NCBI GenBank assembly: GCA_009773205.1 | Contig: WPAE01000009.1 | Location: forward strand, 1 to 42,968 | Direction: 5' to 3' | DNA from: Ignavibacteria bacterium | GTDB lineage: Bacteria; Bacteroidota; Ignavibacteria; Ignavibacteriales; Melioribacteraceae | DNA length: 42,968 nt | In this document: positions 2,733 through 39,763 of the stretch, piece by piece | Numbering within the stretch: position 1 is the first letter of the stretch | How the letters are laid out: every line of letters starts with the position of its first letter | The notes under the pieces: generated by a model | What the model saw: only the letters and a program-made list of their open reading frames with translations | Told to the model about the DNA's origin: nothing | Database searches by the model: none | Translations under genes and position numbers: made by a program

Positions 2733-3791
2733 TTAATAATGATCATGACTTTTTATAGTAGGCTCATTTATAACTTTAGTAGAGTCTCTTATAATAAACT
2801 CTGTTTCAAAAATTACACGTTCGTTAGGAAGCAGAGTTGAAGACTCAATATTATTGATTAATATTTCTGCTGCCTTCATACCAATTTCGTGCAGAGGCGC
2901 GTGTATTGTAGTAAGTGGTACAGGATAAATTTTTGCGTAGTAAATATCATCGTTACCAACAATCGAAATTTCATCCGGGACTTTTATATCCAAATCTCTT
3001 AAAGCAAGCATTACAGCTAATGCCTGCTGGTCATTAAAACAAACTATTGCTGTAGGATATTCTTCTCTTGGCTTGTCCTTAAAATATTCTATCGTTTTTG
3101 CATAACTTTCTTCGTTATGAGAGCCTATAAACACAATAAGATCCTTATTAAAAACTAAAGTACTTTCGCTGAAGGCATATCTAAACCCATCAATTCTTTC
3201 ATGAGTATGAGTAGAGCTTGGCGGTCCGGCGAAGTGAACAATTTTTTTGTGTCCAGATTTTATTAAGTATTTAACGGCTCTCTTTATAGCTTTAATATTA
3301 TCTATAGCAACAACATTGGCTTGAATTCCTCTAATGTCTTCGAGAAGGACGAATGGATAATTTATCATTTTTAGTTTGAATAAGTGTTCAATCTCGGCAG
3401 TTCCTTCAGCTACAGGCGCTATAATAATTCCTTTAATATCTTTTATAGAAAATAAATGAGAAAACCTTTTTTCACTTTTATGATCATTGTCTGAACTAGT
3501 TATGATTACAGAGTAGCCTTTACTGTTAGCGTATTCTGTAACGCCGGAAGCAATGGAAGTATAGAATGGGTAATTGAGATCTTTTATGATGAAGCCAATG
3601 CTCTTATCTTGATTTATGCTCTTTAAATTTCTTGCAACGCCTTTAGGTCTAAAATTAAGTTCTTTCATCACATTCAGAATATGATCGCGTGTGGTAGGTT
3701 TTACAGATGTCTTTGCATTAATTACTGCAGAAACTGTTCCTTTTGAAACACCTGCCCTTCTGGCTACATCTTCGATAGTAATTTTTTTCAT
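2733..3791 (-). CDS. LacI-family transcriptional regulator
   Basis: A 352-residue protein with a classic LacI helix-turn-helix at residues 4-26 (TIEDVARRAGVSKGTVSAVI) and the hinge-proximal PKGVARNLK segment. A periplasmic-binding-protein-like sensor domain follows (about 60-335), including the typical IGFIIKDLNYPFYTSIASG start and GNDD. The start is well supported by a strong GGGAGAGG site just upstream. It is divergent from the GH3/symporter pair across a 510-bp region. A perfect inverted repeat overlaps the predicted GH3 promoter there, and a weaker LacI-like palindrome lies 34 bp upstream of its own start. It is therefore likely to repress the GH3 operon, and perhaps itself, in response to a xylan-derived sugar. 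The ligand is not known. Confidence 0.9.
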   Translation of the reverse strand: MKKITIEDVARRAGVSKGTVSAVINAKTSVKPTTRDHILNVMKELNFRPKGVARNLKSINQDKSIGFIIKDLNYPFYTSIASGVTEYANSKGYSVIITSSDNDHKSEKRFSHLFSIKDIKGIIIAPVAEGTAEIEHLFKLKMINYPFVLLEDIRGIQANVVAIDNIKAIKRAVKYLIKSGHKKIVHFAGPPSSTHTHERIDGFRYAFSESTLVFNKDLIVFIGSHNEESYAKTIEYFKDKPREEYPTAIVCFNDQQALAVMLALRDLDIKVPDEISIVGNDDIYYAKIYPVPLTTIHAPLHEIGMKAAEILINNIESSTLLPNERVIFETEFIIRDSTKVINEPTIKSHDHY

Positions 3792-6647: not shown

Positions 6648-8006
6648 TTGAGTACTATTTCGGAAAAGCTTTCTGTAAAAGAAAAAGTTGGCTATGCTTT
6701 AGGGGATACAGCGGCAAATTTTATTTTTCAAACAATGGTTATGTTCCAATTAGTGTTCTATACAGATACTTTTGGAATCTCTGCTGTTGCAGCCGGAACT
6801 TTATTAGTGATTGTTAGAGTTTGGGATGCAATATTTGACCCAATTATGGGAATAATTGCAGATAGAACAAAAACAAAATGGGGAAAATTTCGTCCATGGA
6901 TTTTATGGACAGCATTACCTTTCGGCATAATGGGATTCTTAACTTTTGTTACGCCAGATTTTAGCTCCGAAGGCAAACTTATTTATGCTTATGTAACTTA
7001 CATAATATTGATGATGATTTACTCTGCAAACAATTTACCATACTCGGCTCTTAGCGGTGTAATGACGGGTGACCTTGGCGAACGTACAAGCTTGTCATCC
7101 TACAGATTTGTGTTTGCCATGTTAGCCCAGCTTATAATTCAAGGGTTAGCGCTGCCTATGGTACATCATTTTGGTGGTGGAGACAGCGCCAAAGGCTATC
7201 AATATACTATGGCAATATTTTCTGCTTTAGCTGTAGTTTTATTTGTAATTACTTTTTCAACTACAAGAGAAAGAATACAACCAGCACCTACACAAAAAGC
7301 TACAATTAAAGAGCACTTTGCCGATTTACTAAAAAATGGTCCAGCAATTGCTATGTTTTTCTTAACAATTGTGCTTTTCATTACTCTTGCAATGAGAGGA
7401 AGTATAGTTGTTTACTACTTTAGATACTACGTGGGACAAGAAAATTTGTTCAGTATGTTTAACGTACTTGGAACAGTAGCTACTATTATAGGGATTTTCT
7501 TCTCCAAAAAACTTTCGATGCGTTTTGGGAAGCGAAACGTGTTTATCACGGGACTATTTGGGACAGCATTTTTCACAATGACATTTATTTTCATTCCTTC
7601 TTCAGATATAACATTATTGTTCGCTTCAGAAATAATTAGGCAGTTTGTTTACGGCTTTACAATTCCGCTGCTATGGGCTATGATGGCAGATGTGGCAGAT
7701 TATTCTGAATGGAAGAACAACCGTCGTGCAACAGGAATAATTTTTGCTGCAATTGTTTTTGGATTAAAAGCCGGGCTTGGTTTTGGAGGCGCCATTGCAG
7801 GTTATATCTTATCTCTTTACGGTTATGTTCCAAACATCGAGCAAACTGCAAGTGCGTTAAATGGAATTATGCTTACTATGAGTTTATTCCCTGCAATAAC
7901 TTTTGCCATTTGTGCAGTTATACTCTTTTTCTACAAAATAAATAAACAGTTAGAAATACAAATAACAGATGAATTAAATGAAAGGAGAAAGTCTTTTCAG
8001 AGTTAA
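6648..8006 (+). CDS. GPH-family sugar:cation symporter (xyloside/oligosaccharide importer)
   Basis: A 452-residue membrane protein with about 12 hydrophobic segments. It has the hallmarks of the glycoside-pentoside-hexuronide (MelB/XynT/UidB-like) family: N-terminal KVGYALGDTAANF, then DAIFDPIMGIIADRTKTKWGKFRPW. The start is TTG at 6648, preceded by CGGAG at a good distance. No better ATG exists before the conserved N-terminus. It follows the GH3 gene by 30 bp, and the pair would import and hydrolyse short xylosides. Members of the family also carry glucuronides, so uptake of (4-O-methyl)glucuronate or aldouronic acids is possible. The stop codon abuts the target duplication of the MITE-like element, so the operon may end here. 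Confidence 0.9.
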   Translation: MSTISEKLSVKEKVGYALGDTAANFIFQTMVMFQLVFYTDTFGISAVAAGTLLVIVRVWDAIFDPIMGIIADRTKTKWGKFRPWILWTALPFGIMGFLTFVTPDFSSEGKLIYAYVTYIILMMIYSANNLPYSALSGVMTGDLGERTSLSSYRFVFAMLAQLIIQGLALPMVHHFGGGDSAKGYQYTMAIFSALAVVLFVITFSTTRERIQPAPTQKATIKEHFADLLKNGPAIAMFFLTIVLFITLAMRGSIVVYYFRYYVGQENLFSMFNVLGTVATIIGIFFSKKLSMRFGKRNVFITGLFGTAFFTMTFIFIPSSDITLLFASEIIRQFVYGFTIPLLWAMMADVADYSEWKNNRRATGIIFAAIVFGLKAGLGFGGAIAGYILSLYGYVPNIEQTASALNGIMLTMSLFPAITFAICAVILFFYKINKQLEIQITDELNERRKSFQS

Positions 8007-27855: not shown

Positions 27856-30753
27856 GTGAAACTAATAGGTAAAGTGTTTATTTCGGTAATAGTGATTTTT
27901 TCTTTGGCAGTAAATGATTTATTAGCTCAAAAGTTAGTCTGGACAGAGCTAAATAAAAGTGGAAGTTTTGCGCTATCAACAAATGGCAAAACGGCTTCGT
28001 TGTTATTAAGTCAAAAAGATTTTCCCGGGGTGTTAAGAGTAAGCAATCATCTTCAGACCGATATTAAGAGCGTTACCGGCGTTAAACCCAAAGTTTTGTT
28101 CGATGAAGTTAATGCATCTGAAATTGTTATTGTTGGAACGATTGGCAGGAATTCTCTCATTGATAAACTAATCGAATCAAAAAAAATTAGTGCCGAGGAA
28201 ATCAAAGGAAAGAACGAAACATTTTTGATTGAGATTGTAGATAATCCAACGCCAAATATTAAACAAGCATTAGTAATAGCCGGAAGCGATAAGCGTGGAA
28301 CGATTTACGGAATGTATCATCTCTCTGAAATGATTGGCGTTTCACCGTGGTATTGGTGGGCAGATGTTCCGGTGAAAAAACATTCTGAGATATTTATTGA
28401 AAGAGGAAAATACTCTCTTGGAGAACCGAAGGTAAAGTATAGAGGCATTTTTATTAATGATGAAGCGCCGGCGCTTTCGGGCTGGTCAGATGAAAAATTC
28501 GGCGGCTTCAACAGCAAATTTTATGAGCATGTGTTTGAATTGATTCTCCGCTTAAAAGGAAATTTCCTTTGGCCTGCAATGTGGAACGATTCTTTTGCAA
28601 CCGATGATCTGTTAACACCAAAACTTGCAGATGAGTATGGAGTTGTTGTTAGTACTTCGCATCACGAACCGATGATGAGAGCTTGGAAAGAATGGGAACG
28701 TGCAGGCAATAAAAAGGGAAGCTGGGATTACTCGAAGAACGCTGAAAATCTGAAAGAGTTTTGGAGAGAAGGAATACACCGAACAAAAGATTTTGAAAAA
28801 GTAGTTACGCTTGCTATGAGAGGCGACGGCGATGAAGCAATGAATGAAGAGGCAAACATTTCTCTTTTGCAAAATATTGTTAAAGACCAGCGCAAGATTA
28901 TTGAGGAAGTAACCGAAAAAGATGCTGCCGAGGTTCCTCAAGTTTGGGCGCTCTACAAAGAAGTGCAAGAATATTATGATAAAGGAATGCGCGTTCCGGA
29001 TGATGTTACAATTTTATTCTGCGATGATAACTGGGGCAACTTACGAAAACTTCCTAAGCTGAATTATGAACAACGCAAAGGTGGTTTTGGTGTTTATTAT
29101 CACTACGATTATGTTGGCGGACCGCGTAACTACAAATGGTTAAACACAAGCCAAATTGAAAGAGTGTGGGAACAGATGCACCTTGCTTATGAATACGGCG
29201 CAAAACAGATATGGGTTGTAAATGTTGGCGATATCAAACCAATGGAGTTTCCAATAAGCTTCTTTTTGGATTTCGCATGGAACCCGGAGAAAATAAATGC
29301 CGAAGATTTGCCAAAATACTATAAAAACTGGGCTGTTCAGCAGTTTGGATCTAAGTATTCAGACGAAATTGCTGAGTTGATAGCTCTTTACACAAAATAC
29401 AACGCTCGTATAAAACCCGAACTTCTTTCAAGTGAAACTTACAGCATAACAAATTACAGAGAAGCAGAAAACGTAGTTCGTGATTTCAATTACTTGAGTG
29501 AGAAAGCAAATAAAATTTTTAATGAACTGCCTCAAGATTATAAAGATGCTTTCTACCAGTTGGTTCTCTTTCCAATAGCCGCATGCGCAAATCTAAACGA
29601 AATGTATTACTACACAGCATTAAACCATCTTTATGCAAAACAAGGAAGGGTGCTTACAGATAGTTTAGCAGAAAAAGTTAAGAGCTTGTTTAAAAAAGAT
29701 GCTGAGTTAACTCATTACCACAATAAAATATTATCCGGTGGCAAATGGAATCACATGATGAATCAAACTCACATTGGTTACTTATACTGGCAGCAGCCGG
29801 ATTCAAACTATATTCCAATTACATATAAAATCGAATCTCCTAACAATCGAGAAATTGGAGTGGCTGTTGAAGGCTCCGATAAGTGGTGGCCTTATGAACA
29901 AAGCTCTGCTAAACTTCCAGAGTATGATCGCTTTAACAAGCAATCTTACTACATCGAAGTTTTTAACAGAGGGAAAAAACTTTTTGATTATCGAATTACT
30001 GCAAGAGATTCTTGGGTTCAGATTTCTGAACCTAAGGGCAAGATAGAAAAACAGGAAAAAATTCTTATCAGTATTGATTGGAATAAAGCCCCGATTGGAA
30101 AAAGCAAAACTTCTATTACAGTAATTGGCCCGAACGATAAATATATTCCTGTGCAGATTGCAATTAATAATCCAGATGAAATCATACTCAAAGATTTTGA
30201 AGGATTTATCGAGGCGGATAATTATGCATCTATTAATTCAGAGAACTATAGCAAAGCAGTTAATACTTCAGAAATTAATTGGAAAGTAATACCAAACCTT
30301 GGAAGAACAGGCTCGGCGGTTTCTGCATTTCCTGTTACAAAAAATATTGCTTCTCTAAGCGAGAGTTCACCGAGGCTCGAATATAATGTCTTTCTATTCG
30401 GTAGTGGAGAAATAAAAATAATGGCTTACTTCTCTCCAACTTTGAATTTTCTTAATAATCCAAACGGAATTAGATATGCTGTTTCGATAAATGATGAGAA
30501 GCCGCAGATATTTAATCTTACTAATCATCCAAACCCGGCGGATTTGAATTATGATCCGGTTTGGAATAAATGGGTAGCTGATAATATTAATATTCAGGTT
30601 TCAAAACACAATATTGAAAAACCGGGAAAGCAAGTTGTTAAGTTCTGGTTTCTAGATCCGGGAGTTGTGCTTCAGAAATTAGTTGTAGAGACAAACGAAA
30701 TTAAACCAAGTTATTTGGGACCTCCGGAAAGTTTTTTATTAAAGAACAATTAG
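27856..30753 (+). CDS. GH115 xylan alpha-1,2-(4-O-methyl)glucuronidase
   Basis: A 965-residue secreted protein starting at GTG, with a signal peptide (about 1-24, cleavage near LLAQ). It matches GH115 along its length. The N-terminal domain contains SDKRGTIYGMYHLSE. The catalytic barrel carries KYRGIFINDEAP (Arg196), LKGNFLWPAMW (about 233-243), STSHHEPMMRAW and CDDNWGN. C-terminal beta domains complete the usual length for the family. GH115 enzymes remove (4-O-methyl)glucuronic acid from internal and terminal xylose residues of glucuronoxylan. This is the key clue that the locus handles methylated uronate. It lies in a tight series with the esterase, without a T9SS tag. Confidence 0.93.
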   Translation: MKLIGKVFISVIVIFSLAVNDLLAQKLVWTELNKSGSFALSTNGKTASLLLSQKDFPGVLRVSNHLQTDIKSVTGVKPKVLFDEVNASEIVIVGTIGRNSLIDKLIESKKISAEEIKGKNETFLIEIVDNPTPNIKQALVIAGSDKRGTIYGMYHLSEMIGVSPWYWWADVPVKKHSEIFIERGKYSLGEPKVKYRGIFINDEAPALSGWSDEKFGGFNSKFYEHVFELILRLKGNFLWPAMWNDSFATDDLLTPKLADEYGVVVSTSHHEPMMRAWKEWERAGNKKGSWDYSKNAENLKEFWREGIHRTKDFEKVVTLAMRGDGDEAMNEEANISLLQNIVKDQRKIIEEVTEKDAAEVPQVWALYKEVQEYYDKGMRVPDDVTILFCDDNWGNLRKLPKLNYEQRKGGFGVYYHYDYVGGPRNYKWLNTSQIERVWEQMHLAYEYGAKQIWVVNVGDIKPMEFPISFFLDFAWNPEKINAEDLPKYYKNWAVQQFGSKYSDEIAELIALYTKYNARIKPELLSSETYSITNYREAENVVRDFNYLSEKANKIFNELPQDYKDAFYQLVLFPIAACANLNEMYYYTALNHLYAKQGRVLTDSLAEKVKSLFKKDAELTHYHNKILSGGKWNHMMNQTHIGYLYWQQPDSNYIPITYKIESPNNREIGVAVEGSDKWWPYEQSSAKLPEYDRFNKQSYYIEVFNRGKKLFDYRITARDSWVQISEPKGKIEKQEKILISIDWNKAPIGKSKTSITVIGPNDKYIPVQIAINNPDEIILKDFEGFIEADNYASINSENYSKAVNTSEINWKVIPNLGRTGSAVSAFPVTKNIASLSESSPRLEYNVFLFGSGEIKIMAYFSPTLNFLNNPNGIRYAVSINDEKPQIFNLTNHPNPADLNYDPVWNKWVADNINIQVSKHNIEKPGKQVVKFWFLDPGVVLQKLVVETNEIKPSYLGPPESFLLKNN

Positions 30754-30828
30754 GAATTGAAATGTTCGTTGGCCAAATTAAAGAACAAAAGCTGCATAGG
30801 TGCCTCCTAGCACAAACGGAGAGTAGTG

Positions 30829-32529
30829 ATGAATAAGAAAATGTTTTCTCTAAGAATCTTTTTATTGCTGTTCTCCGTTTTGTTTTCAACTGCCTTTTCT
30901 CAGTCAGAAAAAGTATTTCGCAATCCAATTCTTTCTGGCTTTTATCCAGATCCAAGCATCTGCAAAGTAGGAGATGATTACTACTTAATCAATTCTACTT
31001 TTGGGTACTTTCCAGGTATTCCGGTCTTCCATAGCAAAGATTTAGTTAACTGGAATTTGTTAGGACATGTACTCGATCGCCCGGAACAACTCAACCTTGA
31101 AGGAGTTGGATTAACAAGAGGATTGTTTGCGCCGGCAATTGAACATAGTAATGGGAAATTTTTTGTAGTATGTACCTTGATTGATGGAGGCGGAAATTTT
31201 GTTGTTACCGCAGATAAGCCCGAAGGACCTTGGTCAAATCTGGTTTGGCTGCCAGAAGTAAACGGAATTGATCCTTCTCTCTTTTTTGATGATGACGGAA
31301 AAACGTATTTGCTTTTTAACAGCGATGCGCCGGACAACAAACCACTTTACAACGGGCACCGTACAATTAGAATCCGCGAGTTCGATCCCATAAATTTAAA
31401 AGTTAGTAACGAAGAAAAAATTATTGTTAACGGCGGTGTTGATCTCAGCAAAAAACCGGTGTGGATTGAAGGACCGCATATTTATAAAGTTGATGGTAAG
31501 TATTTTTTAACCGCTGCAGAAGGCGGAACAGCCGAAGATCACTCCCAAGTAATTTTTAGAAGCGATAATGTTTTTGGCCCTTTCATTCCGTATGAAAAAA
31601 ATCCAATTCTAACGCAAAGACATCTTAAGCCAGATAGGAAAAATCCGGTTACTTGCACAGGTCATGCAGATTTTGTACAAAATGAAAAAGGTGATTGGTG
31701 GACAGTGTTTTTAGCTTGCAGACCGCACGAGCCTTTCATTGAGAACAATTACAATACAGGGCGCGAAACTTTTTTAGCTCCAATAACTTGGGTGGATGGC
31801 TGGCCTGTTATTAATTACGGATTTGAAGAAGTGCAGCATTACTATCCTTTACCAACCAATGTTAAAGGTAAAGCCAAAATTCCATTCAGCGGAGATTTTA
31901 CAATTAAAGAAAATTTTGATGCTAGCGTTCTGCCGAACTATTTTATGTTCATCAAAACACCAACAGAAAATTGGTATAACCTATCATCGAGAAAAGGGTT
32001 TTTAGAAATTAAACTTAGACCGGAAACGGTTTCCGGAAAAAGGAATCCCAGTTTTATTGCCAGAAGACAGCAGCATTCATACTGTTCGTTCTCAACTGTT
32101 ATGGAGTTCGATGCTGCAAGTGAAAATGAAAAAGCAGGAATTATTGCTTTTCAAATGGAAGAATATTTTTATTATTTCTGTAAATCAAAAATTGCGGGGA
32201 AGGATGTTCTTCAGCTTTATAAATCCAACAAAGATCAAATGGTTTACAATATGGAGCTGTTATATCAAATAGAAATTGATGAAAGCAAAAATCTCTATTT
32301 GAAAATTGATGCAAGCGGAAATGAATATTCTTTTTATTATGCTTTCGATAAAAATGATTGGAAGCTGTTTCAAAATAAGGTTGATGCTTCCTATTTGAGT
32401 CCGAGAAATGTTTATGGCTTTGTTGGAACTGTGTTTGGAATGTATGCAACTTCCCTTGGTAAGCAGAGCAGAAACAAAGTATATTTTGATTGGCTGGAAT
32501 ATTCCGGAATGGACAAATTAACCAACTAA
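30829..32529 (+). CDS. GH43 beta-xylosidase/arabinofuranosidase with C-terminal beta-sandwich
   Basis: About 566 residues from the ATG at 30829 (an in-frame GTG precedes it directly, and GGAGAG lies upstream). The signal peptide is about 1-24. The five-bladed propeller has the GH43 triad: base Asp41 in FYPDPS, Asp148 in NGIDPS and acid Glu214 in WIEGPH. A C-terminal sandwich domain (about 350-560, ENWYNLSSRKGFLEI) is typical of GH43 beta-xylosidases. It should release xylose or arabinose from oligosaccharides; a signal peptide on this type is notable because many homologues are cytoplasmic. It is the last hydrolase of the series and lies 12 bp before the corrinoid protein gene, so the two systems may share a transcript. 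Confidence 0.9.
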   Translation: MNKKMFSLRIFLLLFSVLFSTAFSQSEKVFRNPILSGFYPDPSICKVGDDYYLINSTFGYFPGIPVFHSKDLVNWNLLGHVLDRPEQLNLEGVGLTRGLFAPAIEHSNGKFFVVCTLIDGGGNFVVTADKPEGPWSNLVWLPEVNGIDPSLFFDDDGKTYLLFNSDAPDNKPLYNGHRTIRIREFDPINLKVSNEEKIIVNGGVDLSKKPVWIEGPHIYKVDGKYFLTAAEGGTAEDHSQVIFRSDNVFGPFIPYEKNPILTQRHLKPDRKNPVTCTGHADFVQNEKGDWWTVFLACRPHEPFIENNYNTGRETFLAPITWVDGWPVINYGFEEVQHYYPLPTNVKGKAKIPFSGDFTIKENFDASVLPNYFMFIKTPTENWYNLSSRKGFLEIKLRPETVSGKRNPSFIARRQQHSYCSFSTVMEFDAASENEKAGIIAFQMEEYFYYFCKSKIAGKDVLQLYKSNKDQMVYNMELLYQIEIDESKNLYLKIDASGNEYSFYYAFDKNDWKLFQNKVDASYLSPRNVYGFVGTVFGMYATSLGKQSRNKVYFDWLEYSGMDKLTN

Positions 32530-32541
32530 AATTATTGGGAA

Positions 32542-33219
32542 ATGGAAACTCAAGAGTTAATCGAAAAAATTGGGCTCTGTGTAGCACGCGGTAAAGTTAA
32601 CATAGCATCGCCATTTCCTAAAGATATGTTAGGACAAGAAGGAACGGATGAACTAACAAGGAGAGCGTTGGAGATTGAATGCCCGCCCGATAAAATCTTG
32701 CTGGCATGTAATGACGGCATGCAAGTAATAGGCTCAAAGTTTGGGAGAGGAGAAGCGTTTGTACCAGAATTATTAATGTCTGCAAAGGCAATGAATGCTG
32801 TGATGGCTCATCTAAAACCATTTTTCAAGGCGGGAACTGTAAAAACAAAAGGAAAATTTCTGCTGGGAACTGTGATGGGTGATTTGCATGACATAGGCAA
32901 AAATTTGGTTTCGATGGTTGTTGAAGGAAACGGATGGGAAGTAATTGATCTTGGCGTTGATTGCAAAACTCAAAAGTTTATTGATAAGATAAAAGAAAAT
33001 CCGGGTTGCATAGTTGGTCTTAGTGCGTTGCTAACTACAACAATGGCTAACATGGCAAAAACGGTAGAAGAAATTAAAGCTCAATTTCCAGAAACAAAAG
33101 TAATTGTTGGCGGCGCACCTCTTTCTATTGGTGCTGCAATTAAAATGGGCGCAGATGGTTATTCTCCTAATCCGCAAGGCGCAGTTGAGTATTTAAATAA
33201 CTGTTTGATTGCAAGTTAA
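32542..33219 (+). CDS. corrinoid-binding methyltransferase protein (MtaC/MtbC-like)
   Basis: A 225-residue protein of the MtaC/MtbC/MetH-corrinoid type. The N-terminal helical cap is residues 1-90. The C-terminal Rossmann-like B12 domain has the base-off ligand motif GDLHDIGKN (His116), GLSALLTTTM and VGGAP. It carries a methyl group on cobalt between a substrate methyltransferase and an acceptor methyltransferase. There is no signal peptide, so it acts in the cytoplasm. It heads a five-gene set and lies only 12 bp after the GH43 gene, which ties methyl transfer to xylan use. By position the likely methyl donor is a xylan-derived methyl ether, an inference. Confidence 0.9.
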   Translation: METQELIEKIGLCVARGKVNIASPFPKDMLGQEGTDELTRRALEIECPPDKILLACNDGMQVIGSKFGRGEAFVPELLMSAKAMNAVMAHLKPFFKAGTVKTKGKFLLGTVMGDLHDIGKNLVSMVVEGNGWEVIDLGVDCKTQKFIDKIKENPGCIVGLSALLTTTMANMAKTVEEIKAQFPETKVIVGGAPLSIGAAIKMGADGYSPNPQGAVEYLNNCLIAS

Positions 33220-33230
33220 AGAGAAATTTT

Positions 33231-34118
33231 ATGAAATCTTTATTGGAAGAATTAAAGAAAGGGAAAGTACTTGTTTCCGATGGAGCTTGGGGAACATTTT
33301 TATTTCAGCGGGGATTGCAGCAAGGCGAATGCCCAGAACTATGGAATATTACTCACAGAGAAGATGTTTTTGCAATTGCCAAAAGTTACATAGATGCCGG
33401 CGCTAATATGATTCTAACAAACAGCTTTGGCGGCAGCCCGGTTAGATTAAAACATTTTGAATTAAGCGGCAGAGCTGTAGAGTTGAACGAAGAAGCAGCA
33501 AAAATTTCGAGAGAAGCTGCGGGTGATAATCACTTTGTGCTTGGTTCTATTGGTTCATCCGGCGCTCTGTTAATGATGGGCGAAATAACGGAAGAAGAAC
33601 TTTTTGAGGGATTCTATATTCAAGCTCAAGCGCTTAAACAAGGCGGCGTTGATGCAATCTGTATCGAGACTATGACTGATATTCAAGAAGCTGCTATTGC
33701 TATACGCGCTGCAAAAGAGGCAACAAAACTTGAAGTTGTCTGCACTTTTACTTTCAACAAAATTTCTTCAGGTGAGTTTAGAACTATAATGGGAATTTCT
33801 CCTGAAGAAATGGTTTCTGCAATGAAAGATGAAGGGGCAGATATAATTGGCACTAATTGTGGGAACGGATTTGAAAATATGATTGGCATTGTAAAAGAAA
33901 TTCGCCAGGTTGATAAAACAACACCGATACTTGTTCATGCAAATGCTGGACTTCCGATTTTCCACGAGGGTAAAGTTGAGTACCCAGAAACACCGGAAAC
34001 AATGGCAAGCCGTGTTAATGATTTAATTGATTGCGGCGCAAACATAATTGGAGGCTGCTGCGGAACAACTCCGTTTCACATTAGAGCAATTGCTGATATT
34101 ATAAGTAAACGAAAATGA
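33231..34118 (+). CDS. homocysteine S-methyltransferase (MetH N-terminal-type domain)
   Basis: A 295-residue single-domain protein matching the homocysteine-binding barrel found at the N-terminus of cobalamin-dependent methionine synthase: SDGAWGTFLFQRGL, LTNSFGG, CIETMTD. The zinc-thiolate ligands are Cys210 (GTNCGNG) and Cys276/Cys277 (GGCCGTTP). It should accept the methyl group from the adjacent corrinoid protein to make methionine. The pterin-binding domain that normally supplies methyl groups in MetH is absent. The stop overlaps the next start (ATGA), showing tight coupling. BHMT-type use of a different donor is an alternative, but the corrinoid neighbour argues against it. Confidence 0.88.
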   Translation: MKSLLEELKKGKVLVSDGAWGTFLFQRGLQQGECPELWNITHREDVFAIAKSYIDAGANMILTNSFGGSPVRLKHFELSGRAVELNEEAAKISREAAGDNHFVLGSIGSSGALLMMGEITEEELFEGFYIQAQALKQGGVDAICIETMTDIQEAAIAIRAAKEATKLEVVCTFTFNKISSGEFRTIMGISPEEMVSAMKDEGADIIGTNCGNGFENMIGIVKEIRQVDKTTPILVHANAGLPIFHEGKVEYPETPETMASRVNDLIDCGANIIGGCCGTTPFHIRAIADIISKRK

Positions 34119-34858
34119 AAAAATTTCTTCAAGAGAATTATGTTGGCGGTAATACTTTTGGAGTTGTAATCAACTATTCTGACATTACAGTTAAAGAAGA
34201 AGAAATTGAGTTGCTGCTTGGTTATCCGCCCTACCACACACCGGATCCTTTCAAAGAATTGATACGTGAGGCAATCGAAGAATCCAAAAGAATAATTGAA
34301 ATTAAGGCGGGATACAAAATTGCTGATGTTGCATCCAAACAAGAAGATTTGACTGGTTTGACAATTGCCGAAAAATATTTTGATTTACAAAAAATTGTAA
34401 CTGGTGTTCTTAAAAAGTCTGACAGCATTGCTGTTTTTAGTTTAACAATTGGTGATGCTTTGGAAGCAAAATCTAAAGAACTTTTGAAAAAGGGAGATTT
34501 GGTTGCAGGATACATCTACGATGCTGTAGCATCAATTACTGCAGAAGCATGTGCCGACACATTACACGAGCACATTAAAGCAAAAATGCTCCGCAAAAAT
34601 CAAAAAGTTACGAACAGATACAGTCCGGGCTACTGCAACTGGAATGTAATTGAGCAGCACATTCTTTTTTCTCTTCTGCCAAAAAACTTTTGCGGAATAA
34701 CTTTAACAGATTCCGCACTGATGTCACCAATAAAATCTATCAGCGGGATAATAGGAATTGGAGAAAATGTAAAATATTTGGAGTACAGTTGTAATGAATG
34801 CAATATTAAAGATTGCACTTATAGAACCATTAACTACTTGAAGAAGAAGACAAATTAG
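34115..34858 (+). CDS. stand-alone MetH-type activation domain protein
   Basis: A 247-residue protein resembling the C-terminal reactivation domain of methionine synthase. It has the S-adenosylmethionine-site motif RYSPGYCNW (residues 168-176) and the LMSPIKSISGIIGIG segment. The C-terminus has a cysteine cluster (SCNECNIKDC) seen in free-standing members linked to anaerobic corrinoid methyltransferases. The expected role is reductive remethylation of cobalamin that has slipped to Co(II), using S-adenosylmethionine. The start overlaps the preceding stop by 4 bp. The cysteine cluster may bind metal or take part in electron transfer, but this is not shown by the sequence. Confidence 0.8.
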   Translation: MKKFLQENYVGGNTFGVVINYSDITVKEEEIELLLGYPPYHTPDPFKELIREAIEESKRIIEIKAGYKIADVASKQEDLTGLTIAEKYFDLQKIVTGVLKKSDSIAVFSLTIGDALEAKSKELLKKGDLVAGYIYDAVASITAEACADTLHEHIKAKMLRKNQKVTNRYSPGYCNWNVIEQHILFSLLPKNFCGITLTDSALMSPIKSISGIIGIGENVKYLEYSCNECNIKDCTYRTINYLKKKTN

Positions 34859-34876
34859 ATTTATGAGGTAAACAAA

Positions 34877-35905
34877 ATGACAGATCAACATTGGGAATTA
34901 TTGCAACGAGTAATCAAAGGCGAAGTTGTTAATCCTATGCCAACCGGCTTTATAATTGACTGCCCTTGGCTGCCTAACTGGTACGGTGTAAATATTATTG
35001 ATTATTTCTCTAACGACCAGATATGGATCGATTCAAACTTAAAAGCGATAAATGATTTTCCAGACACAATGTTCCTTCCCGGTTTCTGGTCAGAGTTTGG
35101 TATGTGTACAGAACCATCTGCATTTGGAGCGCGCTGTACTTTCCCACCAAATGAATTTCCTCACGCTCACAAAATAATTCATTCATGGGACGATATTGAT
35201 AATTTGCCGGAACCAAATCCTAAGACAGATGGACTTCTTCCTTTTATGCTCAACAGATTAAAACTCGCTCAGCCTAAAATTGAAGCAGCCGGACACAAAA
35301 TTCGCTTTTCCGTTTCAAGAGGTCCATTGAATGTTGCAAGTTATTTAATGGGAACAACAGAATTTTTAACAATGCTAATGATGGAACCTGATAAAGCCGA
35401 ATTGCTTGTTAGAAAAATAACTGCTTACTTAAAAAACTGGCATGAATTACAAATGGAAACTTTTCCTACAATTGATGGAATGCTCATGCTTGATGACATA
35501 ATTGGCTTTATGGGCGAAGATGAATTTCGCCAATTCGGACTGCCATATTTTCAAGAGCTTTATGGATTAAATACTTCTGTTAAGTTTCTGCATAACGATG
35601 CTCCTTGCAGGGTTTCTGCTCCTTTACTGCCGGAAATGGGAGTTAATTTATTCAATATGGGTTTTGAAGTAACACTGAATGACTTAAAAGAACTCACGCA
35701 AAACAAAGTAACCATGTTAGGAAATCTTCCGCCTAGAGATGTGCTTGCAGCCGCAGCTCCGGAAGAAGTTTACAAGGCAACAACTGAATTAGTTGGTTCA
35801 CTCAAGGATAGAACAAGAATAATTATGTCTTGCGGAGGTGGAATGCCGCCGGCAGTTTCCACAGAAAATATTTCTGCGTTCCTAAATGCAGTTAAGAATG
35901 GTTAA
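34877..35905 (+). CDS. UroD-family corrinoid methyltransferase (candidate substrate O-demethylase)
   Basis: A 342-residue member of the uroporphyrinogen decarboxylase superfamily. It is not heme HemE: it lacks the HemE context and has a metal-site pattern of methyltransferases, with His239 and Cys244 (KFLHNDAPC) and Cys319 (MSCGGGMPP). The H-x4-C spacing differs from the classic H-x-C of MtaA/MtbA and of its neighbour. In such pairs one protein usually takes the methyl group from the substrate and another passes it on. The divergent site makes this one the better candidate for binding a methoxylated sugar acid. The gene has a GAGGT ribosome site and follows the activation-domain gene by 18 bp. 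Confidence 0.8.
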   Translation: MTDQHWELLQRVIKGEVVNPMPTGFIIDCPWLPNWYGVNIIDYFSNDQIWIDSNLKAINDFPDTMFLPGFWSEFGMCTEPSAFGARCTFPPNEFPHAHKIIHSWDDIDNLPEPNPKTDGLLPFMLNRLKLAQPKIEAAGHKIRFSVSRGPLNVASYLMGTTEFLTMLMMEPDKAELLVRKITAYLKNWHELQMETFPTIDGMLMLDDIIGFMGEDEFRQFGLPYFQELYGLNTSVKFLHNDAPCRVSAPLLPEMGVNLFNMGFEVTLNDLKELTQNKVTMLGNLPPRDVLAAAAPEEVYKATTELVGSLKDRTRIIMSCGGGMPPAVSTENISAFLNAVKNG

Positions 35906-35931
35906 TGTATGTTTGCTGAACATCTGAGAAA

Positions 35932-36954
35932 ATGAAACAGAAAAAACTAAAACATATTACAGATATGTATTATAGCGAAGGAAAGAGATTGGTTGCTCCT
36001 CTTGTTGGTTTTCCTGGTGTTAAACTTGTGGGATCAAGCATCAAACTTTCACAGCAAAACAGCTGCGAACACTTGAAAGTTATTAATTCTATTAACGAAA
36101 GATTTCACCCGGATCTTTTATTCCCTCTTATGGATCTTTCTGTTGAAGCTAATGCTGTTGGAAGACAGACAATTATTTTGCCTAATGAATCCGCTACAGT
36201 TGTTATTGAAGATTTTGATATCGCACGTCTGAATACTTTAAAAAATATCGCTGTAGAATATGATAGCAGATTGCTTGCTTTTACCGAAACAGTTAAGAAA
36301 ATGAAATTACACTTGCCAGACTCTGTAATGAAAGGAGCTTATGTAACAGGACCTTATACATTAGCCGGATTAATATTAGGCGCAGAAAACGCTGCAATAA
36401 AAAGTATTCTTGATCAAGACGAACTAAAAGAAATTTGTGAATTCACAATCAGCGTAATTCTGAAATATGTTGCTTCGTTAATCACAAGCGGCGCGCAGCT
36501 AATCTGCGTTTTAGAACCTTCGGCAGTTATGCTTGGTCCGGATGAGTTTGAATTATTCTCCGCTAACTATGTTAAAAGAATCTGTGATTATTGTGATGAA
36601 AAAAACATTGCTGCTGTTTATCATATTTGCGGGAATTCATCTCACCTGGTAAACAAAATGTGTGAAGCCGGTGTTGATGCTCTGAGCCTTGATTCTAAAG
36701 AAGCATGAATTAATTTACCACAAATTGCAAAGTTAATACCAAGCGATGTTGTATTAATTGGTAATCTAAATCCTGTTGGTTCTATTCTAAATGGCGTACC
36801 AGAAAAAGTAATAGAAGATGTGAACATTCTTCTTAATTCGATGAAAGCATTTCCAAATTTTATTCTTAGTACCGGCTGCGATTTGCCGCTAGAAGTTCCA
36901 CTTGAAAACATTGACGCATTTATGAAAGCAGGGCGTGAGTATAGAATCCGTTAA
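35932..36954 (+). pseudogene. UroD-family corrinoid methyltransferase (MtaA/MtbA-like) with in-frame TGA
   Basis: The reading frame runs 258 codons to a TGA at 36706-36708 and then continues in the same frame, with intact family sequence, to TAA at 36952-36954. The total of 340 codons matches its 342-residue neighbour. The zinc motif of MtaA/MtbA-type methyltransferases is split by the TGA: His231 and Cys233 (YHICGN) lie before it and Cys316 (STGCDLP) after it, so the short product would lack a ligand. The downstream part (DVVLIGNLNPVGS) is clearly conserved. A recent nonsense change, a sequencing error (for example GGA to TGA) or recoding are all possible. It ends flush against the convergent uxuA gene. 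Confidence 0.8.
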
Positions 36955-38145
36955 TTATAGTTTCAATTCTCTTCTTATCGCTAATTCCATTCCGCGTAAT
37001 TCTGCTAAGCCTCGCATTCTACCAAACAAAGAATAACCTGGATAAATACCTTCCCGTTTCATATCGGGTATCATTAAGTGTCCATGATCCGGCCTGTAAG
37101 GCATTCTAAAATCTTTTCTTCCGTCTGTTATTCTTTTTTCTTGTGCCAATATTAACTCGCGCATTACAGAGTATAAATCAATATCACCTTCAAGATGATT
37201 TTCTTCTATGAAATCTCTGCTCTCGTTTCGCCAAACATTTCTCAAGTGCATAAAATTAATTCTGCATCCAAAACTTTTTGCCATTTCTACTAAATCGTTA
37301 CTTGTATCTGCGCCGAAAGAGCCGGTACAAAGAGTTAATCCGTTGTGTGGCGAATTGTATGCGTTTAACAAAAGCTCAACATCATTTTTGTTGCTTACAA
37401 CTCTTGGTAAACCGAGCAGCGGCCAAGGCGGGTCATCGGCATGAATAACCAAATAAATTCCTGCTTCCTCTGCTGTTGGTGTTATTTGTTTTATGAAGTA
37501 ATAAAGATTCTCTCGTAATTCTAAATCAACGATTGCTGCATATTCTTTAATTGCCAATTTGACTTCATCTAATGTGTAAGATTGGAGTGAGCCGGGCAAT
37601 CCAAACAAAACCGTGCTTTGTAAAGTTTGCTTCTGTTTTTCGCTTAGATTATTAAAGTATTCTTCCGCCTGTTTAATCCGTTCTTCGGTGTAATCTTTTT
37701 CAGCATTATCTCTTCTAAGAATAAAAAGATCAAAAGCTGCAAATGCTCTAGCTTCAAACTTAGATGTAATAGAGCCATCTTTGTAAACAACATCTAAATC
37801 TGTGCGCGACCAATCCAAAATCGGCATAAAGTTGTAACAGACTAAATCAACTCTGCATTTGCCTAAATTAACAATGGTCTGTTTATAGTTTTCAATTAGT
37901 TGTTTGTAATTGCCTTTTCTCTTTTTAATGTTTTCGTGAACTGGAACGCTTTCAACTACTGACCAAGTTAGCCCTACTTTCTCTATTATTTTTTTGCGGT
38001 GTAGAATCGCCTCGGTTGACCAAACTTCACCAACCGGTATTTGATGAAGAGCGGTTACAATTCCAGTAGCACCAGTTTGCTTTATTTCTTCAAGCGAGAT
38101 TGAATCGTTAGGACCGAACCATCGCCAAGTTTGTTCAAAATTCAT
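36955..38145 (-). CDS. uxuA: mannonate dehydratase
   Basis: A 396-residue UxuA: D-mannonate to 2-keto-3-deoxygluconate. The start at 38145 gives the conserved N-terminus MNFEQTWRWFGPND with AAAGG upstream and a length close to E. coli UxuA. A longer in-frame start at 38196 would overlap the SDR gene and is rejected. Family motifs: GATGIVTALHQIP, HADDPPWPLLGLPR, HLRNVWR, and YRPDHGHL near the C-terminus. The gene is the last of a minus-strand series (regulator, SDR, uxuA) with a 16-bp gap after the SDR gene. Downstream enzymes (2-keto-3-deoxygluconate kinase, aldolase) and uronate isomerase are not in the window. Confidence 0.95.
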   Translation of the reverse strand: MNFEQTWRWFGPNDSISLEEIKQTGATGIVTALHQIPVGEVWSTEAILHRKKIIEKVGLTWSVVESVPVHENIKKRKGNYKQLIENYKQTIVNLGKCRVDLVCYNFMPILDWSRTDLDVVYKDGSITSKFEARAFAAFDLFILRRDNAEKDYTEERIKQAEEYFNNLSEKQKQTLQSTVLFGLPGSLQSYTLDEVKLAIKEYAAIVDLELRENLYYFIKQITPTAEEAGIYLVIHADDPPWPLLGLPRVVSNKNDVELLLNAYNSPHNGLTLCTGSFGADTSNDLVEMAKSFGCRINFMHLRNVWRNESRDFIEENHLEGDIDLYSVMRELILAQEKRITDGRKDFRMPYRPDHGHLMIPDMKREGIYPGYSLFGRMRGLAELRGMELAIRRELKL

Positions 38146-38161
38146 TTTTGCCTTTTGTTTA

Positions 38162-38986
38162 TTACACACCGCTGAAAGAACTGAAACCGCCATCAATTGG
38201 AATTACAGTACCAGTAACAAAACTGGAAGCATTGCTTGCAAGCCATAACATTACTCCAGAGAGTTCTTCTGGCTTTCCAAATCGCTTAAACGGAGTCATC
38301 TCAATTATTCTGTGTCCACGTTCTGTGTAAGAACCATCTAAATTTGTAAGCAGCTCTCTGTTTTGGTTTGAAATTAAAAAACCGGGTGCAATTGCATTAA
38401 CACGAATTTGATTGCTGAATTTTAATGCCATCTCCATCGCCATCCATTTGGTAAAAATTTCTACAGCGGCTTTCGCGGTAGAATACCCAAAAGCTCTTGT
38501 TATTGCGCGTTGTGATGCCATAGAAGAAATATTAATGACAGAACCCGAGTTTTGTGCAGCCATTGCTTTTCCAAAAACTAAAGTAGGAAGTACGGTGCCG
38601 CCAAGGTTAAGTTCGTTCACTTTATTAAAGTCATCAATCTGCATATCAAAAACACTTTGCCCAACACCAATTACTGCGCCTGGAACGTGACCGCCGGCAG
38701 CATTGACTAAAACATCAATTCTACCAAATTGCTTCAGAACATTATTGTTAGTTTCTTCTAAGTTTACTTTATTCAAAACGTCGCAAGTGAATCCAAGAAC
38801 GGTGCTTTGATTATTCTGAAGCTCTGAGATAATTTTGTTTAGTGCTTCGGTATTGCGTCCAAGTAAAATTACATTAGCTTCAGCTTGATTAAATGCTTTC
38901 GCAATTTCGCTGCCAATTACGCCTGTTCCTCCGGTGATAACAACTACTTTGCCTTTTAAGCCGAATACGCTTTCCAAATAATTCAT
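38162..38986 (-). CDS. uxuB: SDR-type D-mannonate oxidoreductase (fructuronate reductase)
   Basis: A 274-residue short-chain dehydrogenase: NAD(P)-binding TGGTGVIG (about residues 18-25), VNAAGGHVPG, Ser in NISSMAS and the YSTAK catalytic pair. The sequence resembles the Bacillus-type SDR mannonate oxidoreductase rather than the unrelated E. coli UxuB. Pairing with uxuA on the same strand, 16 bp apart, supports the reaction fructuronate to mannonate. An AAAGGA site precedes the start. Together with GH115 it indicates a route for glucuronate released from xylan. Confidence 0.85.
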   Translation of the reverse strand: MNYLESVFGLKGKVVVITGGTGVIGSEIAKAFNQAEANVILLGRNTEALNKIISELQNNQSTVLGFTCDVLNKVNLEETNNNVLKQFGRIDVLVNAAGGHVPGAVIGVGQSVFDMQIDDFNKVNELNLGGTVLPTLVFGKAMAAQNSGSVINISSMASQRAITRAFGYSTAKAAVEIFTKWMAMEMALKFSNQIRVNAIAPGFLISNQNRELLTNLDGSYTERGHRIIEMTPFKRFGKPEELSGVMLWLASNASSFVTGTVIPIDGGFSSFSGV

Positions 38987-39013: not shown

Positions 39014-39703
39014 TTATAGTTCAAAGATGAAGCCTTTTTCCTTTAGCTTATTATAAATATGCTTATCAAACTTGTATAAATATGCAGCGCGGGTTTTACT
39101 ATTTGCTTCTTTTTCTTTCAGCTTTCTTATCAAATCTACTTTGCTAATTTTCTTTCTAAAATTTCTCTTGTCAAGATTCTTCCCAAGAATTGCCTCATAA
39201 AGTTTTTGCAATTGAGGAAGAGTAAATTTTTTTGGCAGCAATTCAAAACCAATTGGTCTATAACGTACTCTCGTTCTTAATTTACTTAGAGCAACATCAA
39301 TAATTTTCTGATGATCAAATTGAAGCTTTGGTAGTTCATCAATTTTAAACCACTTAACTTCTGTAGTATCTATACCTGTTGTAATAGAATAAGTATCCGG
39401 ACTGATGAGGGCGAAATGCCCAATTGTAAAAACACGCCAAGATGGAAATCTATCAACACCGTCAAAAACGGCAATCTCTTCCAAATAAATATTATTGATG
39501 CCGGTGGTTTCAAATAGAATTCTGTTTGCAGCGGCATCAACCAATTCTTTCTTTTTGATAAAGCCGCCAGGCAATGCCCATTTACCTTGATGAGGCTGTC
39601 TTGCTCGTTTTACAAGCAGTATTTCAAGTGCATTCTTTTCAAAACCAAAGATTACACAGTCTATTGATACATTGCGAATTACATCTTTTAATTTATGAGA
39701 CAT
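39014..39703 (-). CDS. Nudix-type (NrtR/AraR-like) transcriptional regulator of xylose/uronate genes
   Basis: About 229 residues from the ATG at 39703; an in-frame TTG start at 39727 would add eight residues. A Nudix-fold domain (about 10-145) is followed by a winged-helix domain (about 155-229, LPKKFTLPQLQKLYEAI and NFRKKI), the layout of NrtR-family regulators. The Nudix box is degenerate: Gly47, Glu53, Arg61, Glu65 and Gly68 are kept, but the expected Glu at 62 is Ile and at 66 is Thr, so hydrolysis is unlikely and sugar sensing likely. It is divergent from xylB/xylA over two matching palindromes and upstream of uxuB/uxuA, suggesting control of both units. Related Nudix regulators in Bacteroidota respond to arabinose or xylose. 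Confidence 0.85.
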   Translation of the reverse strand: MSHKLKDVIRNVSIDCVIFGFEKNALEILLVKRARQPHQGKWALPGGFIKKKELVDAAANRILFETTGINNIYLEEIAVFDGVDRFPSWRVFTIGHFALISPDTYSITTGIDTTEVKWFKIDELPKLQFDHQKIIDVALSKLRTRVRYRPIGFELLPKKFTLPQLQKLYEAILGKNLDKRNFRKKISKVDLIRKLKEKEANSKTRAAYLYKFDKHIYNKLKEKGFIFEL

Positions 39704-39763
39704 TGTAAGCCATAATTGATACTGCAATTATATAACAATGTTGGTTGAAGTCAAAAAATAAAA

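Follow-up and report, generated by a model that had tools for sequence, protein, structure and literature searches.

The O-demethylases Odm, Vdm, Mtv and Mto of acetogens and archaea, and with them the chloromethane system CdmBCA, combine a methyltransferase I of the UroD fold with a corrinoid protein and draw on a methyl ether or a halide as the methyl donor (PMC13222342). The O-demethylases depend on an ATP-dependent activase (PMC6739815). In the split methionine synthase (MetH) arrangement of the glycine betaine demethylase MtgBCDE, separate MetH modules link a donor enzyme to homocysteine methylation, and the donor enzyme, which acts on glycine betaine, is of the pfam06253 type (PMC12478193). 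The type 1 mlp gene clusters hold several UroD-family proteins together with a corrinoid protein, with His-Cys-Cys methyltransferases for sulfur or selenium compounds and a Ram/RACE activase (PMC10418091). Demethylation of a polysaccharide sugar is described in marine bacteria, where a P450 monooxygenase acts on 6-O-methyl-D-galactose and yields formaldehyde (PMC10033563). Here we describe a gene set in a contig from Ignavibacteria bacterium (GenBank assembly GCA_009773205.1, contig WPAE01000009.1, positions 1 to 42,968 of the forward strand, 42,968 nucleotides, hereafter the window) that shares features with each of these systems, and we think it likely, judging from sequence, that its products CORR, HMT, ACT and UROD1 form a corrinoid methyl-transfer system with 4-O-methylglucuronate, or a metabolite close to it, as the methyl donor. 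The window is one entire contig (G000:C202) of a 4.14 Mb genome in 476 contigs; G-codes stand for genomes, C-codes for contigs and L-codes for surveyed loci.

In hardwood xylan the chief uronic side chain is 4-O-methylglucuronate, whose O4 methyl group blocks lower uronate catabolism because aldol cleavage of methylated 2-keto-3-deoxygluconate (KDG) would leave a methylated glyceraldehyde. Pfam and NCBIfam scans of the gene calls identify, on the plus strand, a GH115 alpha-glucuronidase (27856..30753; PF15979 E 2.2e-154, PF17829 E 2.5e-56) with a hydrophobic, secretion-type N terminus, which would free (4-O-methyl)glucuronic acid from xylan, and a GH43 protein of the beta-xylosidase/arabinofuranosidase type (30826..32529; PF04616 E 9.7e-93, PF17851). 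On the same strand follow the corrinoid methyl-carrier protein CORR (32542..33219; PF02310, PF02607), the homocysteine S-methyltransferase module HMT (33231..34118; PF02574 E 2.9e-69), ACT, a protein with a MetH-type activation domain that binds S-adenosylmethionine (AdoMet) (34115..34858; PF02965 E 2.9e-15), the UroD-family protein UROD1 (34877..35905; PF01208 E 6e-31, with an HND/GGG signature) and the MtaA-like His-Cys-Cys, or S-type, protein UROD2 (35932..36954). The gaps from GH43 to UROD2 are, in order, 12, 11, -4, 18 and 26 bp, HMT and ACT overlapping by 4 bp. Convergent with them on the minus strand lie uxuA, for D-mannonate dehydratase (36955..38196; PF03786 E 3.5e-121, TIGR00695 above its cut-off), whose coordinates use a TTG start, the real start probably lying lower, and a uxuB-like gene for an SDR-type D-mannonate oxidoreductase (38162..38986; NF006132 344 bits, cut-off 281). 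An earlier reading of these letters, made without database searches (the sequence-only reading), had described just this layout, down to the 12 bp step from GH43 and the convergent uxu genes. It had also taken all five genes from CORR to UROD2 as a demethylase of the released sugar acid with two UroD methyltransferases; two UroD-family genes are indeed present, and CORR, HMT, ACT and UROD1 fit such a role, but UROD2 is S type and is cut by an in-frame TGA here, so that only UROD1 fits the donor enzyme. The O4-demethylation idea itself draws support from the UROD1 motif and from co-occurrence with GH115 and GH67, given below. Among the matches listed in a literature search, which left most subscription literature outside, there was no enzymatic 4-O-methylglucuronate demethylation and no pairing of GH115 with a corrinoid methyltransferase; the sequence-only reading had known of no described enzyme of this kind.

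The metal site of UROD1 was compared across an alignment of 77 rows, six of them from a more distant clade, UROD1b, at 31-33% identity. UROD1 carries His-Asn-Asp at the position of the MtaA His-x-Cys and a glycine at the third-ligand column, within SCGGG/SVGGG; both the HND motif and this glycine are conserved in 77/77 rows, and residues H239, N240, D241, R127, R148, W71 and E73 of UROD1 are invariant in all of them. UroD-family S-methyltransferases bind zinc through His-Cys-Cys, and in the O-methyl enzymes of the family one or both cysteines are replaced by carboxylates or by residues that are not ligands (PMC10418091). The aspartate and glycine of UROD1, standing where MtaA and UROD2 have cysteine, fit this rule, and the site is consistent with a non-thiol His-Asp site of the O type. 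UROD1 thus differs from the mlp methyltransferases in its His-Asp-Gly site, and its cassette from the mlp clusters in having no RACE, while UROD2 does carry His-Cys-Cys. We propose that UROD1 is a corrinoid methyltransferase for 4-O-methylglucuronate or a metabolite derived from it. An identity as HemE was rejected, as UROD1 scores 49.2 bits with the HemE model against a cut-off of 302.95; a much stronger URO-D match lies elsewhere in the same genome, at C155. In a FastTree phylogeny of 72 UroD-family sequences, from which the misread open reading frames o_L024 and o_L026 are left out, UROD1 and UROD1b form one group with a support of 0.999, apart from HemE and from UROD2, and the nearest other row is an uncharacterised UroD gene of G116.

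The sequence-only reading had proposed a survey of co-occurrence with glucuronidases and had named its absence from homologous sets as a refutation; homologous sets do show it. Across 245 genomes of the class, UROD1 or UROD1b (E <= 1e-40) was found in 28, as 21 close copies (59-100% identity) and 7 distant ones (32-33%). GH115 is present in 24/28 of these genomes and in 0/217 of the others; GH67 is present in 23 class genomes, which comprise 21 of these 28 together with G224 and G495. Taken together, GH115 or GH67 accompanies UROD1/1b in 25/28 genomes versus 2/217 of the rest (Fisher p ~1e-28, kinship ignored). As such tests ignore kinship, we also counted by genus: UROD1/1b occurs in 16/129 genera, and GH115 in 15/16 of these and in 0/113 of the others. 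Within genera g1, g6 and g28, the members without UROD1 (G035, G062 and G390) are also without GH115 and GH67. In 13/28 genomes UROD1/1b and a glucuronidase are no more than 10 kb apart, where random placing would give about 0.28. It might be argued that the association merely marks degraders of the plant cell wall and that the role of UROD1 has nothing to do with uronates, since UROD1 is found with GH10 in 26/28 genomes and the 26 more distant relatives of the wider survey described below mostly stand outside such loci. By Pfam model counts, however, GH10 is present in 40 class genomes, 26 with and 14 without UROD1/1b, and among these the glucuronidase link holds, at 25/26 versus 1/14; UROD1 moreover adjoins GH115 or GH67 in many loci, and we consider this explanation highly improbable.

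The order GH115-GH43-CORR-HMT-(ACT)-UROD1 repeats in other genomes, which indicates that the set is more than a chance grouping; in G514, of the same genus, the gene order at the locus is identical. CORR, HMT or both lie in the same gene run as UROD1 in 16/21 of the close class genomes (the window, G051 and G188 included), and in two genomes, G433 and G477, the distant clade shows GH115-GH43-UROD1b-CORR-HMT with no intervening gene. A UROD1b-CORR-HMT run is present in 6/7 UROD1b genomes. In G228 the operon continues with an MTHFR-type protein and a methyltransferase of the methyl-folate:corrinoid type (PF00809), and the MTHFR type was confirmed in the operon of G477. At least in G228, then, the UROD1b clade has the chain from donor through corrinoid to folate that classical O-demethylases use, whereas the UROD1 clade has a homocysteine chain. 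Loci L163, L164, L165, L166, L045 and L046 belong to the UROD1b clade, which brings its own CORR and HMT.

Beyond the class, we surveyed the best 80 of at least 460 confirmed relatives of UROD1 (60-77% identity), a sample that leans to close relatives and shares some genomes with the class survey, so that the two are not independent. Local genes were counted by tblastn on all 80 loci, with GH10 queries stripped of their C-terminal sorting domain, which matches other secreted proteins too; GH10 labels in the gene-order comparisons may stem from such tail matches and carry no weight here. In 54/80 loci the sequence ends before 10 kb are reached on at least one side, which makes local absences weak. 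Clusters of neighbouring genes cover 76 loci (in L063, L073, L083 and L107 the gene picker gave no UROD1 open reading frame), and their identities come from scans of representatives. The record names of the 80 include Ignavibacteria, Bacteroidetes, KSB1, Calditrichaceae/Calditrichaeota, Chitinispirillaceae, Fibrobacteres, Spirochaetes, Opitutaceae/Opitutales, Lentisphaerae, Neomarinimicrobiota, WOR-3, Aminicenantes and others. Counting up to 10 kb from UROD1, GH115 or GH67 was found in 29/80 loci, some gene for GH115, GH67, GH10, GH43, GH8 or UxuA in 43/80, CORR in 32/80, HMT in 28/80 and ACT in 28/80. Of the 51 loci without a local glucuronidase, 50 could be followed genome-wide, and GH115 was present in 31, GH67 in 29 and either of them in 36. 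The local association depends on closeness to UROD1: a glucuronidase is nearby in 28/54 loci at 65% identity or more versus 1/26 at 60-65%, and any xylan or uronate gene in 40/54 versus 3/26. A quick IQ-TREE tree requires 11 changes of the xylan label, compared with a mean of 22.4 when shuffled, and 0/500 shuffles came as low.

The remaining cassette proteins resemble the modules of methionine synthase. CORR has DLHDIG (DxHxxG) at residue 114, HMT has NCG and GGCCG, which we take to be zinc-site motifs, and ACT has RYSPGY, presumably the motif of the MetH-type activation (AdoMet-binding) domain; ACT probably reactivates Co(II) corrinoid. Cobalamin-dependent methionine synthase has four modules, and HMT, CORR and ACT correspond to three of them, each with a gene of its own; a Pfam scan of the cassette proteins gave neither a folate-binding module nor a PF00809 methyltransferase II. 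The cassette looks like a split methionine synthase in which UROD1 would stand where the folate module is expected. Compared with the classical O-demethylases, it is without a folate methyltransferase II and without an ATP-dependent activase, having a homocysteine module and a MetH-type activator; no ATP-dependent reductive activase (RACE) was found among the cassette proteins, the rest of the genome being unsearched for RACE. Compared with MtgBCDE, the linking MetH modules are shared, whereas the donor enzyme here is of the UroD family and in a xylan context. The same genome carries a separate full-length MetH frame at C251 (1282 aa, with homocysteine and pterin domains) and one further S-methyl_trans gene; the cassette is therefore not the cell's sole methionine synthase, and its identification as a plain methionine synthase was rejected on that ground. 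A Pterin_bind search gave just two matches in this genome, one in MetH and one in a 399-aa frame that we infer to be DHPS, and hence no free-standing folate:corrinoid methyltransferase.

Several observations weigh against the proposed donor. Neither GH115 nor GH67 is present in 3/28 of the UROD1/1b genomes of the class (G358, G469 and G485), and the same is true genome-wide for 14/50 of the wider loci that were followed. The relatives at 60-65% identity lie mostly outside xylan loci, and their neighbours (representatives) include DUF6807, Gfo/Idh/MocA, sulfatase and GH127 genes, which suggests other substrates. Across 296 genomes of the wider phylum, GH115 is present in 47, 9 of which have UROD1/1b; the 38/47 without UROD1 are all outside the window's class, so that UROD1 is not a general partner of GH115 and other solutions to the methyl group must exist. 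The acceptor modules are likewise not exclusive to UROD1: a CORR homologue is found in 28/28 UROD1/1b genomes versus 10/21 UROD1-less genomes in the same search, which indicates that they serve other donors too. In G035, of the same genus as the window, a CORR that is 83% identical is kept without UROD1 or glucuronidases, and a free-standing S-methyl_trans gene stands on another contig than CORR. Such a genome speaks for another reading, in which the set is an alternative methionine synthase, or an mlp-type salvage system for methyl-sulfur or methyl-selenium compounds, placed beside xylan genes by chance, and the MetH likeness of HMT, CORR and ACT, together with the S-methyltransferase His-Cys-Cys site of UROD2, points the same way. 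Yet both cysteine ligands are absent from UROD1, the full-length MetH and the further S-methyl_trans gene of the window's own genome speak against it, and neither mlp nor MetH predicts a tie to GH115 or GH67, which leaves this alternative with very little probability in our estimation.

A further point against the sugar acid as donor concerns an esterase-family gene, which directly follows UROD1 in 7/76 loci and whose representative has PDB matches to IroE-like proteins and weaker ones to feruloyl esterases. This likeness leaves some room for an aryl ether as the donor: the cassette could be a corrinoid system that demethylates aryl methyl ethers, such as ferulate or lignin fragments, that accompany xylan, and the UroD-family enzymes OdmB, VdmB, MtvB and MtoB do use methoxylated aromatics (PMC13222342). 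UROD1 is however remote from CdmB, a relative of the aryl O-demethylases with a solved structure, giving a weak match (E 1.3e-5 with the alignment profile, in a comparison that had CdmB as its reference for these enzymes). The co-occurrence with alpha-glucuronidases, specific even within GH10 genomes, and the operons of G433 and G477, in which GH115 and GH43 run directly into UROD1b, also argue against an aromatic donor, and we regard the aryl ether as unlikely.

From the observed gene content, order, conservation, motif and co-occurrence we infer the substrate, the direction of transfer, the acceptor, the transport and the role of UROD2 as follows, the roles of UROD1, CORR, HMT and ACT being assigned from what is known of their families. 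GH115, with GH67 where present, would release 4-O-methylglucuronic acid outside the cell, and a sugar-acid transporter would import it. UROD1 would bind this acid, or one of its early products, and polarise the O4 methyl ether at its His-Asp metal site, whereupon Co(I) on CORR would take the methyl group and HMT would pass it to homocysteine, giving methionine; CORR oxidised to Co(II) would be rescued by ACT with AdoMet. The freed glucuronate would go through UxuB and UxuA towards KDG. In 12/80 loci an MFS gene of the sugar-acid type stands no more than 10 kb from UROD1; the one representative scanned scores 268 bits with a D-galactonate transporter model, below its cut-off of 395, and its best PDB match is a D-galactonate transporter. 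By our estimate, methyl groups released in stoichiometric amounts would saturate homocysteine if it were the only acceptor, a further difficulty for the scheme: release at a catabolic scale would exceed the need for methionine, and an overflow acceptor is therefore likely, perhaps reached through UROD2. In genomes where UROD2 is intact it may pass the methyl group to another thiol when homocysteine is insufficient. Free 4-O-methylglucuronate would be the simplest donor, later intermediates being indistinguishable from it by sequence. As a variant of the same scheme, UROD1 could act on 4-O-methyl-fructuronate, -mannonate or -KDG, or on 2-O-methylglyceraldehyde phosphate; uxuA and uxuB lie convergent or nearby, and an extra SDR gene directly precedes UROD1 in several loci, but the SDR pairing is not general, and we take the variant as possible, though on the doubtful side.

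UROD2 requires separate treatment. Its reading frame ends at a TGA (36706-36708) and resumes in the same frame to 36954. A glycine stands at this codon in 16/16 aligned full-length relatives, which come from 11 distinct genomes (5 rows being repeats), and since all of them agree, the TGA reflects either a nonsense mutation or a mistake in the assembly. Selenocysteine at the TGA was rejected for the same reason. The relatives keep the His-x-Cys...Cys motif, which phmmer aligned to the matching motif of MtaA (4ay7). In L064 (12209-13004) UROD2 is in two short pieces, and, with the TGA of the window, this suggests that UROD2 may be decaying in some of its carriers.

Should the proposed donor be correct, the chemistry would differ from that of each system it resembles. 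The methyl ether removed would be that of a sugar, compared with the methyl ethers or halides of the described UroD-fold systems, and, as in the P450 route, a polysaccharide sugar would be stripped of its methyl ether, but by cobalamin methyl transfer instead of by a monooxygenase that yields formaldehyde. We lean towards the view that UROD1 and UROD1b are the first members of a new corrinoid methyltransferase family that cleaves sugar methyl ethers, with the O4 methyl group passed to methionine (as in the window) or to methyl-folate (as with UROD1b) in glucuronoxylan degraders of many phyla, and with distant relatives, those beside DUF6807, Gfo/Idh/MocA and sulfatase genes, acting on other O-methylated sugars. 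If this is true, one-carbon units can be drawn from hemicellulose with no need for oxygen. The corrinoid route would also explain how anaerobes use the whole xylan side chain, would tie hemicellulose to B12 and to the metabolism of one-carbon units, and would extend the substrate range of UroD-family methyltransferases to sugar ethers.

Other arrangements were seen around the relatives of these genes. In L171 (G116:C19 14000-33999), from a genome without UROD1, CORR-ACT-HMT lies beside several other UroD-family genes and may there act as the acceptor set for other donors, and in G035 CORR is followed by a YdjC-like deacetylase gene (L167 10035-11776). The extra SDR gene, which shares about one third of its residues with UxuB, immediately precedes UROD1 in L061, L065, L069, L080, L082 and L159 (the L061 copy was scanned on the same contig, as L158 8524-9414), and its product could oxidise the sugar acid either while still methylated or once the methyl group is gone. 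A GH88/GH105-family gene (one representative scanned) is within 10 kb of UROD1 in 11/80 loci, often directly after it, including L061, L062, L065, L066, L069, L084, L089 and L114; this family usually acts on unsaturated uronides and is odd for xylan degradation. In L106, L111, L115, L124 and L125, from Bacteroidetes-type records, UROD1 relatives stand beside DUF6807 and Gfo/Idh/MocA genes, in L115 also beside a sulfatase, hinting at the demethylation of other methylated sugars.

The rest of the window continues the glucuronoxylan theme. Scans for viral contigs gave zero matches, Rfam at gathering score gave no match in the window and so no riboswitch, and promoter and terminator scans gave counts no higher than in shuffled sequences. 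Upstream, back to about 2.7 kb, lie a LacI-family regulator (2733..3791, minus strand), of which a 69-76% identical copy is near UROD1 in 10/80 other loci, a GPH-family (glycoside-pentoside-hexuronide) symporter (6648..8006, plus strand; TIGR00792 419 bits, above cut-off), which is a possible importer, a GH3 gene, a TonB receptor, three GH10 genes, GH2, GH8 and a SASA-family esterase. Downstream of the cassette and the uxu genes follow a xylulokinase-like kinase and a xylose isomerase. A Nudix regulator resembling NrtR and AraR (39014..39727, minus strand; PF21906, PF19368, PF00293) adjoins both uxuB and the gene for the kinase, and is thus a regulator in a sugar locus that comes from a family of NAD control.

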